A program made the position numbers and the translations under genes. A stretch of 35,246 nucleotides of DNA from Planktomarina sp. GTDB lineage: Bacteria; Pseudomonadota; Alphaproteobacteria; Rhodobacterales; Rhodobacteraceae. The stretch's first letter is position 1; each line of letters starts with the position of its first letter. The stretch is taken from contig JAHDCP010000017.1 of assembly GCA_020629775.1 (NCBI GenBank), positions 1 through 35,246 of the forward strand, in the 5' to 3' direction. Shown one piece after another: positions 19,783 to 29,027 of the stretch. The notes under the pieces were generated by a model that was given only the letters and a program-made list of their open reading frames with translations, was not told the origin of the DNA and did no database searches.

Positions 19783-20229
19783 ATGAACAGACGAGACTTC
19801 GCCAAATCTATCGCCGCCACGGCGGCCCTTCCTTTGCTGCCGACGGCGGCTGTGCCTGCGGCCCCCGCTATCAAATCCATTGATTTGATGTGGGCCAAAG
19901 CCATTGCCAAAGCGCAAAACAACGGCAGCGCATCTTTGATTGCGCAGTCGTTGAAAGTGCCGCCCCATGTGGCCGAAGCCATACAAGACAAATTGCTGTC
20001 TCAGAACGTGATCCGCGCCGGTGCGCTGCCCGGTCAAACGGTGGCGGTGAACCCCACCTTTACGGGCGCGCATATGAAAGTGGCAGCCAAGGCCGTGGCC
20101 CAAACCGCCAAAAATCAGTCCTTAGAATTGGTGAAAAAAGTCACGTCACCCGATTGCGGGCATGATATTCCGGACGATCCCAAAGACGATTGTTCAGAAC
20201 ATCATCCAGAACATCCACCGCAGCCGTGA
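19783..20229 (+). CDS. Small protein with Tat-like signal peptide, uncharacterised
   Basis: I start at ATG 19783, since it opens MNRRDFAKSIAATAALPLL, a twin-arginine pattern (RRxFxK) with hydrophobic core and a likely cleavage near VPAAPA. That gives 148 residues; an upstream in-frame start at 19684 would bury the signal. No good Shine-Dalgarno is seen at the usual distance. The mature part is Ala-rich and helical (LIAQSLKVPPHVAEAIQDKLL) and has no domain I recognise. The last 30 residues, ending CGHDIPDDPKDDCSEHH and a Pro-rich tail, are read antisense to the 3' end of kynU (89-base overlap), which is unusual. The gene is plausible but the true extent of its C-terminus is uncertain. Confidence 0.55.
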   Translation: MNRRDFAKSIAATAALPLLPTAAVPAAPAIKSIDLMWAKAIAKAQNNGSASLIAQSLKVPPHVAEAIQDKLLSQNVIRAGALPGQTVAVNPTFTGAHMKVAAKAVAQTAKNQSLELVKKVTSPDCGHDIPDDPKDDCSEHHPEHPPQP

Positions 20230-21328
20230 TATCGGCTTCGTCCAGGTAAAGGGGCGTGATGCCGAACCGCATGATGTTGGGCGCACGGAAATCCCCGATG
20301 ACCCCCCGTGCGATGACGGCCTGCATCGCGGCATATCCGTTTTCAAAAGCAAAGCTGACTTGGGATCCGCGCACGGATCCGTCGCGCGGGCTTGCCAAGG
20401 TTAACATGGGGCACCGCGCTTCGACTTGGGTGATAAACTGTTCGGACAGGTCCAAACATGCCGCCCGCACTTGGGCCATGGTCAAACCATCCCAGACCGC
20501 CAGTGCAGATTCCAAAGCCGCCAATTGAATAACGGGCGGTGTGCCCACCCGCATGCGTTCAATGGCAGGGGCTGGTCTGTAATTCAGTTCAAAAGCAAAC
20601 GGTGCTGCGTGTCCCAACCAGCCAGACAGGGCAGGTTGCAAATCATCTGCCAAGTCGGGACGGACATAAATGAACGCCGGGGCCCCTGGCCCGCCGTTCA
20701 GGTATTTATACGTGCAGCCCACAGCGAATTCGCAATTTGTGGCGGCCAGGTCCACTTCCACCGCACCGGCGGAATGGGCCAAGTCCCACACCATAACCGC
20801 CCCTGCGGCCTGGGCGGCTTTGGTCAATTCCATCATGTCATGCATGCGGCCTGTGCGGTAATCCACCTGGGTCAACATCACCACGGCAATGTCATCGCCC
20901 ATGGCATCTGTCACATCTTCCGGGGCCACGGTGCGCAGTTCATACCCCGCATCCTTCAGCCGCACCAAGCCTTCGGCCATGTACAAGTCCGATGGGAAGT
21001 TGCCGGTGTCCGATAAAATAACCTTGCGGTCTGGGCGCAGGGACAGGGCCGCATCCAAAGCTTGAAACACCTTGATCGACAGCGTGTCCCCCATGGTGAC
21101 CGAAGACGCAGGCGCCCCAATCAAGCGCCCCACCATATCCCCCACCCGACGCGGTTGGTCCATCCACTGGCACGTGTTCCAGCCTTTGATCAGCTGCGTG
21201 GCCCATTCGTTTTTCAACATGCCAGACACGGCATCGGGAACGGACACTGGCAATGGCCCCAAGGAATTCCCGTCCAGATAAATCATGCCTTCAGGAAGGT
21301 GAAACAAGTCTTTGCGGGGCAATGTCAT
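20141..21328 (-). CDS. kynU: Kynureninase
   Basis: 395 residues, typical length. A PLP-dependent enzyme that cleaves kynurenine to anthranilate and alanine in tryptophan breakdown. Motifs: YLDGNSLGPLP at the N-terminus, the PLP-phosphate region MGDTLSIKVFQAL, VMVWDLAHSAGA with Asp182 (PLP ring) and His185, the Schiff-base lysine Lys208 in CTYKYLNGGPGAPAF, and GWLGHAAPFAF and RMRVGTPPVIQLAALE for substrate and dimer contacts. It begins 11 bases after the stop of the DUF1989-GcvT fusion gene on the same strand, so they are probably co-transcribed. Tryptophan or kynurenine dioxygenase and formamidase genes are not in the window. Confidence 0.96.
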   Translation of the reverse strand: MTLPRKDLFHLPEGMIYLDGNSLGPLPVSVPDAVSGMLKNEWATQLIKGWNTCQWMDQPRRVGDMVGRLIGAPASSVTMGDTLSIKVFQALDAALSLRPDRKVILSDTGNFPSDLYMAEGLVRLKDAGYELRTVAPEDVTDAMGDDIAVVMLTQVDYRTGRMHDMMELTKAAQAAGAVMVWDLAHSAGAVEVDLAATNCEFAVGCTYKYLNGGPGAPAFIYVRPDLADDLQPALSGWLGHAAPFAFELNYRPAPAIERMRVGTPPVIQLAALESALAVWDGLTMAQVRAACLDLSEQFITQVEARCPMLTLASPRDGSVRGSQVSFAFENGYAAMQAVIARGVIGDFRAPNIMRFGITPLYLDEADITAAVDVLDDVLNNRLWDRPEYHARNRVT

Positions 21329-21339
21329 ATGGGCACCTT

Positions 21340-23673
21340 TCAGGCGCGGGCGCGCGCACGGGTTGGGTCAATGAAGGGCACGTCACACACAGTGCCGGAC
21401 AAGCGCTTCATATGCCCGTCCATTTGCCCCACTTCAAGCGCCGTTCCCACATCGGACACCCCCACAGACAGACGCACCATGGCGATGGCCCGTTCCAACA
21501 TCGGTGACCTTGTGGCCGATGTCACCACACCCACCGGGCGTTCGCCATCATACACATGCGCCCCTGGGCTGGGCACATCATCACTGTCCATCAACATCCC
21601 CTTAAGCACCCGGCGCGGCGTTTGTTTGTTACGTTCCAATGCAGCCCGACCAACAAAATCCGATTTGGCCATGTCCACGGCAAACCCCAGCCCCGCTTCC
21701 CATGCATCCACGTCAGCGGCGAATTCCGCGTTGGCGGCGGCCAGACCTGCTTCGATCCGGATGATGTCCAGCGCGTGTCCGCCCATGGGTTCGATCCCAA
21801 AGTCCTGACCCGCGTCCATGATGGCATCCCAAATGCCCACCGCATCTTCAGGGGCGCAAAATACCTCGTAGCCCAGTTCACCTGTGTATCCAGCCCGGGC
21901 CAACATGAAGGGCGCCCCTTCCCGGTGCCCCACGCGCGCCACGGTGGCCCCGAACCACCGCATATCATCCACACGCGGAACATGGGGCTGGGTAAAGGCA
22001 AGTTTGCGCATCACGTCGCGGGACTTGGGACCTTGGATCGCCAAGTTCGGCAAGGCCGACCGCATGTCGTGGATCCGCACATCCATCCCTTGGGCCAGCA
22101 CGGTCAAGTGGCGCGCGGATTCTTCAGTACCGCAACACCAGCGGAACACATCGGGGGCCAAGCGAAACAAGGTGCCGTCATCAATCACCACGCCGTGGTC
22201 ATCACACATCAACGTATAGTGCCCGCGCCAAACGGGCAGTTTGGCCACATTGCGGGTTGTGGCCTTTTGCAACAGCTTTTCGGCATCTGGCCCCAAGACA
22301 TCATATTTGCGCAAGCCTGACAGATCTTGGATCGTCACGGCATTCCGGCACGCCCAATATTCGCCCAAGGTGCCGGCCCCTGGGAACTGGCTGGGCAACC
22401 ACAAATCCCGCGCGGGCGCGTATTGTGTGGTCAACTTACTGGTGGCTGGGTGAAACGCCGAATTCTGGGACAGGGTCATGGGCGCGTCTTCCTTTTCGCG
22501 GTACGCCACGGCCCGCCGAATGGGGGCCTGTTCTTTGTAAATGCGCACATGCACATCGGTGGGGTTCCATCCGTTGATGGGGTCCACGTCATCGGGGCAC
22601 GCGGTGGTCACGCACACCAAATCATCCATGGCGCGCATGGCCACGTAATCACCTGGGCGGGACCAGGATTCCTCTGATTGAATGCGGTTATCCGCATGGT
22701 CGATCCAGGAATTGAAAAAGAAATTGATCGCAGGCCAAGCCGGGCGCGCGGCCACGCCATACGGATCCATGGCATGTGAAATATTGTCAGAACAATTCAC
22801 ATGGCCGGGAAAGCCGCGTTCTTCATACCCGCGTGCAGTACAGGCCAAGGCAAACGTATCGTGGCGACCCACGGTGTCTTGCACCACATTCAGCAAAGGC
22901 CGCATGTTTTGGTCAAAGAATTTGTCAAACAACCCAGGTCCGGGGTACGCCCCGCCCACCATGGACCGGGTCACGGTACTGTCGATCATGTGTTCCTGGC
23001 CCGCATCCAGGCCTGCTGTGCGGAAGGCCATGAAATCCGAACACTGCTGGCCCGCCACATCAATGATCTGAACGTATTCCCCTTTGTTCACGCGGTATGA
23101 CTGCGCCGTGGCCCGCGACACCGTAAATTCTTCGCGGATTTCGCCCAAGGGGTCGGGCAACAAAACAGCACTGGTGGCCGCGCGTTGAATGTGAACCCGG
23201 AATGCCCCAGTGGCAGACCCAGCCACATGGGCTGTTCGCGGGGCCGGGTTCACGACCCACACATCGCAAGTTTGCGTCGCGGACAAAACCAACACATCAT
23301 CGGGCGTGGAAATAGCCGCAGCTTGGGGCACCTTGCGCCCGCCATTTGCATCGACCCATGCCGCAAATTCGGCACTGTCAAACGCGGCCAAATCCAAATC
23401 AGCCCCTGCGGGCAATCCAAAGCTGGGCAACGCGTCTTGCCCATCGGGGGACACAGCCACCACCACGGGCGTCATGCCACTGTCCAAGGCCGTTAAGGCC
23501 AGGGTATCCCCTGCCCCCACAGACAGATGCACCGCCCTGCGGGGATCAACGAATTGAACTTGTGCGGAATGGGGTGCGCGCATGCCATGAAAGGCACGGC
23601 CTTGGGCCAAGGTGGTTCCGTTTTGGAACCCTGTCAGCAGCGATGTTTGAACCACAGCCTTCATCTCAATCAT
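21340..23673 (-). CDS. DUF1989 (urea-carboxylase-associated-like) / GcvT aminomethyltransferase-like fusion protein
   Basis: 777 residues, no signal peptide. Three parts: residues 1-180, a little-conserved N-terminal region; about 185-380, a DUF1989 domain with VQIIDVAGQQCSDFMAF, the VGRHDTFALAC core (His271, Cys278), HVNCSDN (Cys294) and VCVTTACPDDVDPINGW; about 410-775, a complete GcvT-like fold with QDLSGLRKYDVLGPDAEKLLQ, IQGPKSRDVM, FMLARAGYTGELGYEVF, IRIEAGLAAANAEF and GVVTSATRSP, the folate-binding type of T-protein and dimethylglycine-dehydrogenase C-termini. DUF1989 includes carboxyguanidine deiminase subunits, so an N-containing substrate with one-carbon transfer to tetrahydrofolate is a reasonable guess. 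Start may instead be the ATG at codon 4. Upstream lies a strong palindrome. Confidence 0.88.
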   Translation of the reverse strand: MIEMKAVVQTSLLTGFQNGTTLAQGRAFHGMRAPHSAQVQFVDPRRAVHLSVGAGDTLALTALDSGMTPVVVAVSPDGQDALPSFGLPAGADLDLAAFDSAEFAAWVDANGGRKVPQAAAISTPDDVLVLSATQTCDVWVVNPAPRTAHVAGSATGAFRVHIQRAATSAVLLPDPLGEIREEFTVSRATAQSYRVNKGEYVQIIDVAGQQCSDFMAFRTAGLDAGQEHMIDSTVTRSMVGGAYPGPGLFDKFFDQNMRPLLNVVQDTVGRHDTFALACTARGYEERGFPGHVNCSDNISHAMDPYGVAARPAWPAINFFFNSWIDHADNRIQSEESWSRPGDYVAMRAMDDLVCVTTACPDDVDPINGWNPTDVHVRIYKEQAPIRRAVAYREKEDAPMTLSQNSAFHPATSKLTTQYAPARDLWLPSQFPGAGTLGEYWACRNAVTIQDLSGLRKYDVLGPDAEKLLQKATTRNVAKLPVWRGHYTLMCDDHGVVIDDGTLFRLAPDVFRWCCGTEESARHLTVLAQGMDVRIHDMRSALPNLAIQGPKSRDVMRKLAFTQPHVPRVDDMRWFGATVARVGHREGAPFMLARAGYTGELGYEVFCAPEDAVGIWDAIMDAGQDFGIEPMGGHALDIIRIEAGLAAANAEFAADVDAWEAGLGFAVDMAKSDFVGRAALERNKQTPRRVLKGMLMDSDDVPSPGAHVYDGERPVGVVTSATRSPMLERAIAMVRLSVGVSDVGTALEVGQMDGHMKRLSGTVCDVPFIDPTRARARA

Positions 23674-23763: not shown

Positions 23764-24612
23764 TTAGTCGTCTTGGAACACCACTTGGCGTTGGGTTCCC
23801 AATCCTTCGATCCCCAGTTCCATCACATCACCGGGTTTCAGGAATTGCGGGTCTGGTTTCATCCCCATGCCCACACCAGGGGGTGTGCCCGTGCTGATGA
23901 TATCGCCTGGGTGCAAGGTGAACAGTTGGGACAAATGTTCAATGATTTCCGCCACAGAAAAAATCATGGTGGAGGTATGGCCCGTTTGCATGCGTTTGCC
24001 ATTCACATCCAAATACATGGTCAGGTTTTGCGGATCGGGCACTTCATCACGGGTCACCAGGAACGGGCCGGTGGGACCGTATGTGTCGCAGGACTTGCCC
24101 TTGGTCCATTGCCCTGTCAGCTGCGTTTGAAAGTGGCGTTCTGACACGTCATTTACGATGGTGTATCCGGCCACATAATCCAGCGCGTTTTCTTTGGACA
24201 CGTATTTGGCTTCTGTGCCGATAACGACGCCCAGTTCCACTTCCCAATCTGTTTTGGTGGACCCGCGCGGCATCACCACATCGTCGTTCGCACCCACGAT
24301 GGCGGAATTGGCTTTGAAAAACAGGATCGGGTGTTCGGGGATGGCGGCCCCGGTTTCTGCCGCGTGGTCGGAATAGTTTAAGCCGATGCACAAGAACTTG
24401 CCGAACCCTGCCACAGGCACGCCCATGCGTGGTTCGTCTTCCACAGCGATCAGGGTGTCCGTGTCAAATTCCCGCAACCGATCCAGGCTTTCATCAGACA
24501 GAACATCCGGCGTGATATCTTCAACATATCCTGCCAAGCTGCGCAGAACGCCATTGTCATCGATCAGGCCCGGTTGGGCCATGCCTTGGTCGCCGTATCG
24601 TACAAGTTTCAT
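23764..24612 (-). CDS. Fumarylacetoacetate hydrolase family protein, likely 2,4-diketo-3-deoxy-aldonate hydrolase
   Basis: 282 residues. The FAH fold is clear: KFLCIGLNYSDHAAETG, PILFFKANSAIVG, the metal ligands Glu124 and Glu126 in WEVELGVVIG and Asp155 in IVNDVSER, then KSCDTYGPTGPFLVT and the final GDIISTGTPPGVGMG. The E-x-E to Asp spacing of 29 residues matches known FAH-family hydrolases. Members next to a KDF-dehydrogenase-type SDR and a sugar-acid dehydratase commonly split 2,4-diketo-3-deoxy-L-fuconate or -rhamnonate into pyruvate and a hydroxy acid, which fits this cluster. Other FAH activities such as ureidoglycolate lyase or acylpyruvase cannot be excluded. Its start lies 17 bases after the dehydratase stop. 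Confidence 0.88.
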   Translation of the reverse strand: MKLVRYGDQGMAQPGLIDDNGVLRSLAGYVEDITPDVLSDESLDRLREFDTDTLIAVEDEPRMGVPVAGFGKFLCIGLNYSDHAAETGAAIPEHPILFFKANSAIVGANDDVVMPRGSTKTDWEVELGVVIGTEAKYVSKENALDYVAGYTIVNDVSERHFQTQLTGQWTKGKSCDTYGPTGPFLVTRDEVPDPQNLTMYLDVNGKRMQTGHTSTMIFSVAEIIEHLSQLFTLHPGDIISTGTPPGVGMGMKPDPQFLKPGDVMELGIEGLGTQRQVVFQDD

Positions 24613-24629
24613 TGCAATTGCTTTCTTGG

Positions 24630-26429
24630 TTAATGGTTGTCGCGCGGCATGTGTTTGCGCGCGATATCGCGGTAATTGGGGGCGTCACGCAGGGTCATGC
24701 CCTCGTCCAGACGGCCCACCATTTCACGGAAATATTGCTGCCAAGGGGATTGGCTTTCGGGCATCTGATACCCGCCCGCCGCCAGCATATCTGCCGCACG
24801 GGTTTTCAATTCTGCATCAGACAACAACATATCGGCCGTGCATTTGTTCAAATCAATCCGCACCATGTCCCCTGTTTGCAGCAGGGACAAACCACCGCCA
24901 TCCGCCGCTTCGGGCGATGCGTTCAAAATGGACGGTGATCCGGACGTGCCTGATTGCCGCCCATCCCCGATGCACGGCAACGCCTTAACGCCCTGCTTCA
25001 ACAGATATGACGGCGCGCGCATGTTCACCACTTCCGCCCCGCCGGGATACCCTTTGGGCCCCGCGCCGCGCATGAACAAAATGCAGCTGTCATCAATGTT
25101 TTCGGCCGGATCATCGATGCGATGGTGGTAATCTTCCGGCCCGTCAAACACCACAGCCCGCCCTTCAAACGCACCCGGATCATCGGGGTTAGACAAATAT
25201 CGTTCGCGGAACGCGTCCGAAATCACCGATGTTTTCATAATCGCACTGTCGAACAGATTGCCCTTCAGGTTGATGAAACCCGCCGCATCCATCAGCGGGT
25301 TTGCCACAGGCAAGATCACGTCTTGGTTGGTGGATCGCACATCGCCACAGTTGTCGGCCATGGTTTTGCCGTTGGCTGTGATGGCCCCCGGATGCGGCAG
25401 AAGCCCTTCTGCCATCAATTCCCCAATCACCGCCGGGACACCGCCCGCGCGTTGATAATCTTCGCCCAGGTATTTGCCCGCCGGTTGCAGGTTCACCAAA
25501 AGCGGCACGTCGTGGCCAACGTTTTGCCAATCGTCATTATCCAAAGCCACGCCCAAATGTTTGGCAATCCCGTTCAAGTGAATGGGCGCGTTGGTGGACC
25601 CGCCAATGGCGGAATTCACCACCACCGCATTTTCAAACGCTTCGCGGGTCATGATATCCGAGGGGCGCAGATCTTCCCACACCATGTCCACAATCCGGCG
25701 GCCCGTTTCGTAAGACATCTGACCCCGTTCGCGATATGGCGCGGGAATGGCGGCGGACCCGGGCAGTTGCATGCCCAGTGCTTCCGCCAGGGAATTCATC
25801 GTGGTGGCCGTGCCCATGGTGTTGCAATACCCCACCGAAGGGGCCGATGCCGCGGCGATTTCCATGAAGCCCGCATCGTCAATTTCGCCCTTGGCCACCA
25901 TTTCCCTGGCTTTCCAGATCACGGTGCCGGACCCGGCCCGTTCATTGTCCCACCAGCCGTTCAGCATGGGGCCGACAGACAGGGCAATGGCAGGAATGTT
26001 CACCGTGGCCGCAGCCATCAGCAAGGCAGGGGTGGTCTTGTCACAGCCGATGGTCAGAACAACCCCATCGATGGGATACCCATACAAGCTTTCCACCAAA
26101 CCCAAGTATGCCAAATTCCGATCCAAAGACGCGGTGGGGCGTTTGCCGGTTTCCTGAATGGGGTGCACAGGCACTTCCAAGGCAATCCCGCCAGCGGCAA
26201 TGATCCCATCGCGCACGCGCTTGGCCAGTTCAATGTGGTGGCGGTTGCAAGGGGACAGATCGCTGCCCGTCTGAGCGATGGCGATGATCGGTTTGCCGCC
26301 CTGCAATTCTTCGCGCGTCAGGCCATAATTCAAGTACCGTTCCAGATACAGCGCGGTCATTTCCGGGTTGTCGGGATTGTTGAACCATTTGCGCGAGCGC
26401 AGGTCTTCGGGCTTGATTTTATGGGTCAT
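24630..26429 (-). CDS. IlvD/Edd family dehydratase, pentonate/aldonate type (L-arabonate dehydratase-like)
   Basis: 599 residues. Iron-sulfur dehydratase that converts a sugar acid to its 2-keto-3-deoxy form. Cysteines Cys61 (LSPCNRHH), Cys129 ([11 protein letters not shown]) and Cys202 (VGYCNTMGT) have the same spacing as the [2Fe-2S] ligands described for Rhizobium L-arabinonate dehydratase (C59, C127, C200). Further family motifs are [26 protein letters not shown] and [20 protein letters not shown]. The opening [22 protein letters not shown] is typical of the pentonate subgroup rather than of biosynthetic IlvD. The exact sugar acid (arabonate, fuconate, xylonate or other) is not readable. 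It is preceded by the SDR gene (59 bases) and followed by the FAH gene. Confidence 0.92.
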
Positions 26430-26488
26430 GGGACAGTCCTGTTGGTGTTGGGGCCAGTGTTAGCGACAGCACGGGCCAAGGTGAAGGG

Positions 26489-27235
26489 CTATCCCGACCA
26501 GCCCCCATCAATCACGTGCGACTGCCCTGTGGTAAACGCACTTTCATCGCTGGCCAGATACACCACCAGCGCGGCAATTTCTTCCGCCTTGGCAACGCGG
26601 CCCATGGGTTGGCGGGACACAAAGGCCTCCATCGCGGCGTCATAACTGCCCATGTCTTCGCCCAGCGCTTTGACACGGTCATGCCAACTGGGGCTTTCCA
26701 CGGTGCCTGGGCAAATGCAGTTACAGCGGATCCCTTTGGTGATGTAATCCACCGCCACGGATTTGGTCATGCCGATCACCGCCGCTTTGGTGGTGCCATA
26801 GGCAAATCGGTTCGGCGCGCCAATGATGGATGAACAGGCCGAAGACATGTTGATGATGGACCCTGCGCCCCGTTCCAACATGCCGGGCAACGCCGCTTGC
26901 ATGGTGCGGAACATGGATTTGACGTTCAGATCAAATGCGAAATCCCAGTCTTCGACGACGCAATCCAAAACAGTGCCGTGATGCACAAAGCCCGCGCAGT
27001 TGAACAAAACATCCGGCTGGGCGGCGGCCACCCCTGCATCCACGCTGGCAGTATCGCGCACATCCAAGACAAGTGTGTGCAAGAATTCACTTTTGGGCAA
27101 ATCAGCCAACAGGGTTTCATTCACATCTGTGGCCCAAACGTGCGCCCCTTCTGCGACCATGGCCAATACACTGGCGCGCCCAATGCCCTGACCCGCAGCC
27201 GTGACCAAAACCCGCTTTCCTGATAATCTGCCCAC
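26489..27235 (-). CDS. SDR dehydrogenase, DHRS6 / 2-keto-3-deoxy-L-fuconate dehydrogenase type
   Basis: 248 residues, classical short-chain dehydrogenase: cofactor motif TAAGQGIGR (12-20, with Ala replacing the first Gly), acidic ATDVN near residue 36 suggesting NAD, NCAG (79-82), INMSS with the catalytic Ser, Tyr146 and Lys150 in YGTTK. The stretch AGFVHHGTVLDC and the NR before the catalytic Tyr closely resemble human DHRS6/BDH2 as I recall it, including arginines in the CPGTV loop and the RQxxGR segment said to bind the substrate carboxylate. Bacterial relatives oxidise 2-keto-3-deoxy-L-fuconate to the 2,4-diketo acid, the step between the dehydratase and FAH hydrolase downstream. First gene of the minus-strand unit. 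Confidence 0.9.
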   Translation of the reverse strand: MGRLSGKRVLVTAAGQGIGRASVLAMVAEGAHVWATDVNETLLADLPKSEFLHTLVLDVRDTASVDAGVAAAQPDVLFNCAGFVHHGTVLDCVVEDWDFAFDLNVKSMFRTMQAALPGMLERGAGSIINMSSACSSIIGAPNRFAYGTTKAAVIGMTKSVAVDYITKGIRCNCICPGTVESPSWHDRVKALGEDMGSYDAAMEAFVSRQPMGRVAKAEEIAALVVYLASDESAFTTGQSHVIDGGWSG

Positions 27236-27276
27236 AACGGCCCCCTTTGTTACATGGGATCAGGCTACAGCCCCCC

Positions 27277-27311
27277 TTGCCCATGGCAATCAAAAAACGA
27301 TAGCGATAACA
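27277..27311. promoter_or_regulatory. Candidate regulatory elements between divergent SDR genes
   Basis: The 102-base gap between two divergent dehydrogenase genes holds TTGCCCATGGCAA (27277-27289, arms TTGCC/GGCAA around CAT) and CGATAGCGATAACA (27298-27311), a weakly symmetric sequence around CG resembling LacI/GntR-type half sites. One shared operator could control both sugar-acid units. Symmetry is modest and no -35/-10 pair is convincing, so this is only a pointer. Confidence 0.25.
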
Positions 27312-27337
27312 AAACAGCCATCACCATCGGGGACACC

Positions 27338-28093
27338 ATGTCACTTTCACTGTTTGATTTGACCGGAAAACGGGCCTTGATCACTGGATCCAGCCAGGGG
27401 ATCGGGTTTGCCCTGGCCAAAGGCATGGCCGCCGCTGGGGCCCAAGTGGTTCTGAATGGGCGGGATACAAATAAACTGACCGCCGCCGCTGGCGAAATCG
27501 AAAATGCGCAGCAATTGCCGTTTGATGTCACGGACCACAATGCCGTGCGCGATGCCGTGGATGGGTTCGAAGCGAACCATGGCCCGATTGATATTTTGGT
27601 GAACAATGCAGGCATGCAGCACCGAGCCGAGCTGCAGGATTTCCCCGCCGATGCGTTTGAAAAGTTGCTGCAAACCAATGTCGCCAGTGTGTTCCATGTG
27701 GGCCAAGCCGTGGCCCGGCACATGATCGGGCGTGGCGCAGGGCACATCATCAATATTGCCAGCGTTCAAACCGCCTTGGCCCGCCCAACGATCGCGCCGT
27801 ACACGGCCACCAAGGGCGCGGTTGCGAACTTGACCAAAGGCATGGCCACCGATTGGGCGAAGTATGGGTTGAACTGCAATGCCATCGCCCCAGGGTATTT
27901 CCTGACACCGCTGAACAAAGCGTTGTCTGATGACCCAAAATTCAACGGTTGGCTTGAAAACCGTGTGCCCGCCGGGCGGTGGGGCAACGTCGATGAATTG
28001 GTGGGGGCCGCGATATACCTGGGATCAGCTGCGTCTTCTTTTGTAAATGGCCACACGCTTTACGTGGATGGCGGCATAACAGTGAGTTTGTGA
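27338..28093 (+). CDS. SDR dehydrogenase, gluconate 5-dehydrogenase-like
   Basis: 251 residues from ATG 27338 (MSLSLFDLTGKRALITG); the upstream in-frame ATG at 27254 adds a leader without family similarity. Classical SDR: TGSSQGIG cofactor motif, NGRD after the second strand (pattern of NADP-type gluconate dehydrogenases), NNAG, the NIAS catalytic serine segment and YTATK with the catalytic Tyr and Lys. FDLTGKRALITGSSQGIG, then NGRD and the ending YVDGGITVSL closely match gluconate 5-dehydrogenases (IdnO), which interconvert D-gluconate and 5-ketogluconate. It is followed after one base by a PfkB kinase, so the two form a sugar or sugar-acid unit divergent from the dehydratase genes. Confidence 0.88.
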   Translation: MSLSLFDLTGKRALITGSSQGIGFALAKGMAAAGAQVVLNGRDTNKLTAAAGEIENAQQLPFDVTDHNAVRDAVDGFEANHGPIDILVNNAGMQHRAELQDFPADAFEKLLQTNVASVFHVGQAVARHMIGRGAGHIINIASVQTALARPTIAPYTATKGAVANLTKGMATDWAKYGLNCNAIAPGYFLTPLNKALSDDPKFNGWLENRVPAGRWGNVDELVGAAIYLGSAASSFVNGHTLYVDGGITVSL

Positions 28094-28094
28094 T

Positions 28095-29027
28095 ATGATA
28101 GTTGTTGGCGGTGATAACCTGATCGACATGCTGCAGTCTGACCGGACAGCAGATGAAATAACCTTTGCGGGCATGCGCGGCGGATCTGCATATAACACAG
28201 CGCGGGCCATTGGCCTGCAGTCCCAAAGCGTGGGGTACATCACCCCCATCTCCACCGACAGTTTGGGGGATTTCCTGGCCGACAAAATCTTGGCCGATGG
28301 CGCAGAACTGTTGTCAGACCGTTTGCCCAACCCATCCTCTTTGGCGGTGGTGACCCTGACAAACGGCCAAGCCGGTTACCAGTTTTACCGCCAAGGCACC
28401 GCAGAACGCATGGTGGACACCGCCATGCTTGCCGCCAACACACCCGGCACGATCACCGCATTTCACCTAACGTCACTTGGGATCGTGGAAGGGGCCGATG
28501 CAGATGCATGGGCGGACCACTATGAAGCCCAGCGCCAAGCCGGCGTTTTGACCACGCTGGACCCCAACGTGCGCCCGTTGCTGATTGATGGGCGCGAACA
28601 GTACCTGGCCCGGTTGAACCGCTTGTTCGCCAACACGGGGCTGCTGAAACTCAGCGATGAAGATTTGGAATGGATTTATCCAGACCTGGGGTTCGATGCC
28701 GCGTGCCAAGCCGTGCTGGCCGCAACATCCGCCGCTTTGACTGTGGTCACCAAGGGCGGTGATGGTGCCGTGGCGTTCCACAAAGATGGCCCGATCGAAA
28801 TTCCCGCCGCCCCTGTAGACACACTGGTGGACACCGTGGGCGCGGGCGATACATTTATGGGAACGCTGCTGTCCGAATTGTCCCGAAGGGGCGCATTGAA
28901 CACAAACGCAGTGGCCGCTTTGTCTTCGGATGAAGTGTTACAAATCATCACGACAGCGGCCTTTGCGGCGGCAATCAACTGCGGACGCAAGGGGTGCCAG
29001 CCCCCCACGGATGCAGAACTGAACTAA
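28095..29027 (+). CDS. PfkB-family carbohydrate kinase
   Basis: 310 residues. Ribokinase/PfkB fold: N-terminal substrate motif GMRGGSAYNTARAIG (residues 26-40), TLDPNVRPLLI in the middle and the C-terminal ATP/anion-hole signature VDTVGAGDTFMGTLL with the catalytic Asp. The kinase phosphorylates a sugar or keto-deoxy acid: fructokinase and 2-keto-3-deoxygluconate kinase both fit, and the neighbouring gluconate-5-dehydrogenase-like gene does not settle it. The ATG follows the SDR stop by one base and its own stop lies 23 bases before the next gene, so at least the first two are coupled. Confidence 0.88.
   Translation: MIVVGGDNLIDMLQSDRTADEITFAGMRGGSAYNTARAIGLQSQSVGYITPISTDSLGDFLADKILADGAELLSDRLPNPSSLAVVTLTNGQAGYQFYRQGTAERMVDTAMLAANTPGTITAFHLTSLGIVEGADADAWADHYEAQRQAGVLTTLDPNVRPLLIDGREQYLARLNRLFANTGLLKLSDEDLEWIYPDLGFDAACQAVLAATSAALTVVTKGGDGAVAFHKDGPIEIPAAPVDTLVDTVGAGDTFMGTLLSELSRRGALNTNAVAALSSDEVLQIITTAAFAAAINCGRKGCQPPTDAELN

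Follow-up and report, generated by a model that had tools for sequence, protein, structure and literature searches.

TdmL, a sister clade of trimethylamine N-oxide demethylase with its own recurrent operon, and its possible role on another N-oxide or onium compound

The closest described system is trimethylamine N-oxide demethylase (Tdm), represented by the enzyme of Methylocella silvestris BL2. According to the available text of PMC12560246, Tdm converts trimethylamine N-oxide (TMAO) to dimethylamine and formaldehyde in a 1:1 ratio, with or without O2, and its metals are Zn and Fe. It is composed of a DUF1989 domain, a GcvT-like domain and, at the N-terminus, a DUF1989-like domain lacking the Zn cysteines (PMC12560246). 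The Zn cysteines of the M. silvestris enzyme are C263, C279 and C343, to which D198, H276 and D346 are added, and two folate positions are also named for Tdm in the same text (PMC12560246).

The window analyzed here is a 35,246-nucleotide stretch of DNA from Planktomarina sp. In line with the preliminary description, it possesses a single unbroken frame of 777 codons at 21340-23673 on the minus strand. The product is a fusion protein of the Tdm family, named TdmL after the clade to which it belongs. Both domains named earlier were confirmed by Pfam in the 777-residue protein, DUF1989 in residues 184-353 (22615-23124, minus strand; E 2e-42) and the GcvT-type folate-binding domain GCV_T in residues 412-665 (21679-22440, minus strand; E 4.9e-59), followed by the GcvT C-terminal barrel domain GCV_T_C in residues 688-769 (21367-21612, minus strand; E 1.4e-13). 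In a full-length model of the protein (pLDDT 83.2, pTM 0.74), residues 177-382 resemble DUF1989 structures (Z 21-22), and residues about 401-777 resemble T-protein and dimethylglycine oxidase (Z about 45). The N-terminal 180 or so residues had been left unassigned, and they are indeed missed by Pfam; structure comparison now points to a second DUF1989-like domain at residues about 36-171 (23161-23568, minus strand). Residues 1-180 were modelled separately from a 37-row alignment (pLDDT 84), and the top three entries in VIA-align were all DUF1989 (Z 9.8, 9.4 and 8.8; rmsd 3.5-4.6 over 129-133 residues), the next row standing at Z 7.4. Foldseek likewise had a DUF1989 entry on top, but the match is weak (E 3.8e-4) and cupin-like folds with no relation to it reach comparable E-values. 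The predicted fold fits the third domain that the available text of PMC12560246 gives for Tdm. An assembly error at the junction of the two halves was considered and rejected because relatives are encoded at 69 further loci, with 49-85% identity mostly over nearly the whole length, and because dN/dS between the window gene and its orthologue in another genus genome (G007) is 0.10 at dS 1.06. The window gene is under purifying selection.

The best match among NCBIfam models, and the sole one covering nearly the whole chain, was NF053776 (trimethylamine N-oxide demethylase) with 1047.2 bits over residues 30-777. The score is below the equivalog cut-off of 1100 bits; this cut-off is no clean divider, because a row of the canonical side (L145) likewise falls under it with 1078 bits. 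The PDB entries of trimethylamine N-oxide demethylase were matched by sequence over the full length, 9q59 and 9q5l at E 4.3e-181 and 9q5a at E 7e-179. Their absence among the fold-search matches listed is no argument against family membership. As aligned, 9q5a has Ala where 9q59 has Asp in the motifs CTDF and ACPDD, and the window protein has Asp in both (D213 and D361). The protein shares with Tdm the three domains in the same order, the mapped metal residues and the full-length alignment, and on this domain order, homology and set of residues it is assigned to the Tdm family in the wide sense.

Other relatives share only parts of this organization. GcvT and dimethylglycine oxidase have the fold of residues about 401-777 but no DUF1989 part, and the score against the GcvT model TIGR00528 was 167.8 bits, under its cut-off of 235.85. 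Unlike them, the window protein is of the Tdm type at both folate positions (PMC12560246); placed by motif, these are F503, nearly invariant, and L635, invariant. The stand-alone DUF1989 proteins (3siy, 3oru, 3di4 and UAAP1/UAAP2) resemble residues 177-382 and, more weakly, residues 36-171 in fold but are not fused to GcvT. Carboxyguanidine deiminase subunit function is found within the DUF1989-related family, and the preliminary description hinted at a link to it for the window protein. This link goes no further than the common DUF1989 domain, as the scores against UAAP2 and UAAP1 (TIGR03424 and TIGR03425) were 87.5 and 55 bits, far below the cut-offs of 284.7 and 205.95. The preliminary description also knew of no characterized activity for the fusion and held that a published one would overturn its proposal; Tdm has the same architecture and, by the available text of PMC12560246, just such an activity. 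Its idea that a single chain could release one carbon from a small nitrogen compound, next to a domain of the folate type, is in accord with the Tdm reaction published there.

The genome of the window possesses a second fusion on another contig (C122; L001:910-3291). It scores 1183 bits against NF053776, over the cut-off, and about 7 kb from it lies a binding protein matching the TmoX structure, 4xz6, with 629.6 bits. The two paralogues have the same architecture and 46% identity over the matched part, whereas only the copy on C122 passes the cut-off and has TmoX on its contig. The window gene is not the canonical Tdm of its genome. A third DUF1989 protein of this genome is unfused (contig C29; L003:1333-2271, minus strand), and its divergent neighbor (L003:2301-3335, plus strand) resembles a PLP-dependent ammonia-lyase, the family being judged by eye. 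Within the genus, the window-type gene was found in three of 20 genomes, namely that of the window, G007 (85% identity) and G008 (65%), all of which carry a canonical copy as well. A named locus, L017, from a Planktomarina metagenome-assembled genome, has exactly the G007 sequence.

A family survey of 394 genomes with residues 1-382 separated window-type genes, at 375 bits or more, from canonical ones, at 286 bits or less, and found the former in 18 family genomes besides that of the window. In a FastTree phylogram of 124 rows, prepared without L085, a short row, and without nine rows that duplicated others exactly, 42 canonical rows and 82 window-type rows were divided by a long branch with support of 100; the phylogram comes from FastTree alone, has flagged long branches (L070 among the canonical rows) and is built of rows that include no biochemically characterized Tdm sequence. 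The window protein was placed in the sister clade, outside the canonical Tdm clade, and is 40-43% identical to the 16 canonical sequences aligned in A1. At the level of sequence, the window-type rows are thus shown as a sister clade, TdmL, distinct from canonical Tdm. TdmL is found on named contigs of marine Rhodobacterales, of Granulosicoccaceae and other gammaproteobacteria, and of symbionts of Olavius and Bugula; the relative at L050 is that of Roseovarius nubinhibens ISM. The three-domain architecture is already known; the TdmL sister clade with its own recurrent operon is new, and no published clade of this kind was recognized in the literature searched, which was largely open-access text and included the available parts of PMC13390433, PMC5520151 and PMC12661815.

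The metal residues of the M. silvestris enzyme were mapped onto the window protein by identical spacing, giving C278, C294 and C359 for the Zn cysteines and D213, H291 and D362 for D198, H276 and D346. Residue conservation analysis showed that all six, and also H271, are invariant in the 82 TdmL and 42 canonical rows, while D361, likewise counted among the metal-site residues, is Asp in all 82 TdmL rows and in 37 of the 42 canonical ones. Against this conserved background, the canonical and TdmL rows differ in 27 columns, two of them by gaps, when the canonical state is defined on 38 core rows and the four deepest canonical rows are kept apart. Three of the fixed changes are near the metal ligands in sequence, between or just after them. 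At position 282, all 82 TdmL rows have Gly where 36 of the 38 core canonical rows have Tyr (Y282G), and at position 288 Phe, in 80 of 82, replaces the Tyr of all 38 (Y288F); both positions are within the stretch from C278 to C294 (22792-22842, minus strand). Position 366 is Ala in all 38 and Ile in all 82 (A366I), and it belongs to a segment, residues 364-368, modelled at pLDDT below 50. The loss of a bulky Tyr between two ligands could widen the pocket. Position 268, which is Val in the window protein and Cys in 32/42 canonical rows, was considered as a lost metal cysteine; this was dismissed, as each clade has both residues and the position is outside the mapped ligands.

The canonical and TdmL genes also differ in operon partners in about half of the loci. 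Among 70 TdmL loci (the window and 69 contigs with relatives), a complete ABC transporter was found within 5 kb in 33, a LacI regulator in 34 and both in 28, while 30 loci, the window and 29 others, have neither binding protein nor ATPase nearby. The usual gene order is a divergent LacI, TdmL, and then either binding protein-ATPase-permease or ATPase-permease-binding protein; the representative parts are an OpuAC binding protein and ProV/ChoV-like and ProW/ChoW-like proteins. In a comparison within 6 kb, made with profiles built from TdmL loci and so biased toward TdmL, the binding protein was found in 34/70 TdmL versus 0/23 canonical loci, the ATPase in 37/70 versus 3/23, LacI in 35/70 versus 1/23 and TmoX in 0/70 versus 3/23; three of the 23 canonical loci (L156, L159 and L164) are truncated at a contig end or by a short contig. 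When the 52 of 70 TdmL loci with at least about 4 kb on both sides are taken, the binding protein is present in 29 and LacI in 32. A recurrent partnership of TdmL with a betaine/choline-type importer and a LacI regulator is thereby shown in the relatives.

The binding protein of the TdmL operon has little similarity to TmoX (29.9 bits) and somewhat more to ProX (42.9 bits). Seven Trp residues, including 37, 87, 156 and 162, are invariant in 34/34 sequences; with them, an aromatic cage around a methylated onium group would be possible. The two transporter layouts (L018-L084), with the binding protein first or last, have different permease clusters, which may reflect more than one event of transporter recruitment or rearrangement. 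A full arrangement of LacI, TdmL, glycine-betaine binding protein, ATPase and permease is present on plasmid p599725 of Paracoccus seriniphilus. The TdmL gene there (L177:7676-9923) is annotated as two overlapping coding sequences, a hypothetical protein and an aminomethyltransferase family protein, and may therefore be broken or mis-sequenced.

The window gene itself has no transporter or LacI nearby and is situated among sugar-acid genes and kynureninase. No TdmL-type transporter was found elsewhere in its genome, where the best match to the binding protein, 22% identical, is the TmoX locus. The gap of 11 bases between the end of TdmL and kynU (20141-21328, minus strand) was given correctly in the preliminary description, and kynU is a kynureninase by NCBIfam (282.6 bits against a cut-off of 246.4). 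The adjacency had been taken as a pointer to amino-acid or nitrogen-compound catabolism, and as such it fails, kynU being beside the gene in one of 70 loci; a tblastn search across the TdmL loci found kynU in the window's own locus only. The G007 copy (L017) is flanked on either side by the same genes as the window copy, with no kynU between. In the genus, kynU is present in 18/20 genomes, and in G007 and G008 it is on contigs other than that of TdmL. The neighbor survey and these positions reject a kynurenine link; the adjacency looks local to the window genome, and kynU was judged to be outside the system. On the other side of TdmL, at 23764-29027, is a sugar-acid catabolic neighborhood with a 2,4-didehydro-3-deoxy-L-rhamnonate hydrolase-like protein, a member of the dihydroxy-acid dehydratase family, two SDR proteins and a PfkB kinase. 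In G008, TdmL adjoins a gene for a 1067-residue protein (L013:5410-8610, minus strand, the same sequence as L029:4007-7210, plus strand) which contains a reductive-dehalogenase part (TIGR02486, 199.6 bits, over the cut-off) along with ferredoxin and NADH-oxidoreductase parts.

The distribution of TMAO-pathway genes was analyzed in the 393 family genomes besides that of the window. Taking as TdmL only those in which no further match reached E 1e-60, and with at most four candidates scored per genome, 12 had TdmL only, six had both types, 80 had canonical Tdm only and 295 had neither. A Dmm-type subunit (PF11927 at 206 bits or more) was found in 0/12, 2/6, 48/80 and 3/295 of these, respectively; Fisher's test of TdmL-only against canonical-only genomes gave p 5.8e-5, which is a rough guide only as the genomes are related. 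The threshold was set after the scores had been seen, and any cut between 180 and 215 bits gives 0/12 because the best TdmL-only genome reaches 179.1 bits. TmoX at 53% identity or more was present in 0/12 TdmL-only genomes, 5/6 with both types and 11 of 20 canonical-only genomes hand-picked from the survey, and TmoX-like proteins of 34-38% identity occur in 6/12 TdmL-only genomes. The TdmL-type binding protein (E 1e-40 or better) was found in 10/12, 6/6 and 6/20 of the same groups, at 37-50% identity in the last. The genome of the window has both TmoX and a Dmm-type subunit. Absence of Dmm does not exclude TMAO as substrate, because SAR11 bacteria have Tdm and lack Dmm according to the available text of PMC5520151.

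On sequence evidence, the reading preferred here, with a probability of roughly 0.6, is that TdmL is a three-domain metal-dependent demethylase (aldolase) in a sister clade of Tdm, for another, perhaps bulkier, N-oxide or onium compound. By analogy, a Tdm-type demethylation is very probable, and metals and chemistry are expected to be as in Tdm. The DUF1989 site, with three Cys together with Asp and His, would hold Zn plus Fe as in Tdm, and an N-oxide-type substrate would be converted there to an amine and formaldehyde with O2 not needed, as published for Tdm (available text of PMC12560246). Release of the methyl as formaldehyde would be metal-assisted and redox-neutral, and the GcvT domain beside the formaldehyde may hand it to tetrahydrofolate. 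It is less certain, though still probable, that the main substrate is other than TMAO, perhaps a bulkier N-methylated compound, and such a substrate might be imported by the betaine-type transporter. Chances appear even for the wider proposal of an operon under LacI control that brings in an N-oxide or onium compound resembling betaine, from which TdmL, as a second, ecologically separate Tdm-type demethylase, frees a methyl as formaldehyde without O2. Candidate substrates include N-oxides derived from choline or an amino acid, and oxidized sulfonium osmolytes.

TdmL could also be a second TMAO demethylase with the same substrate, perhaps differing in affinity, transporter or regulation. Such an enzyme would fit the full-length homology and the invariance of the metal residues. 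Canonical copies too can lack a nearby transporter (TmoX within 6 kb in 3/23), and with TmoX and a Dmm-type subunit in the window genome TMAO could reach both enzymes; yet the fixed differences near the metal residues, an operon of its own without TmoX, and TdmL-only genomes without close TmoX or Dmm-type subunits make a second TMAO demethylase rather doubtful. It is very improbable that the DUF1989 domain does other chemistry, such as hydrolyzing or deiminating a compound akin to guanidine or urea: a relation to UAAP2 is seen at 87.5 bits, but the UAAP scores are far under their cut-offs, identity to canonical Tdm is 40-47% across the chain and every Tdm metal residue is kept. Hardly more credible is the view of the window gene as a relic which has lost its operon and is disappearing from the lineage. 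It would explain a gene present in just three of 20 genus genomes, with no transporter or LacI nearby and no TdmL-type binding protein found in its genome, but the 777-codon frame is intact, and comparison with the G007 orthologue, likewise without the operon, gave a dN/dS of 0.10. A Tdm-type demethylase for another compound is retained as the main reading. The window gene, whose genome has no such transporter, would not be the first choice among TdmL members for further study. The ligand of the operon binding protein should equal the TdmL substrate or be close to it.

The gene tdm is used as a marker for marine TMAO turnover, and one survey counted it by BLASTP at e-50 with the R. pomeroyi protein (available text of PMC5520151). 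The two paralogues of the window genome match each other at E 1e-186, so TdmL would probably pass such a cut-off. If the substrate of TdmL differs, tdm counts mix two functions and there is a further substrate to find. If the operon reading is true, TdmL would belong to an undescribed marine osmolyte pathway whose genes are presently counted as tdm.
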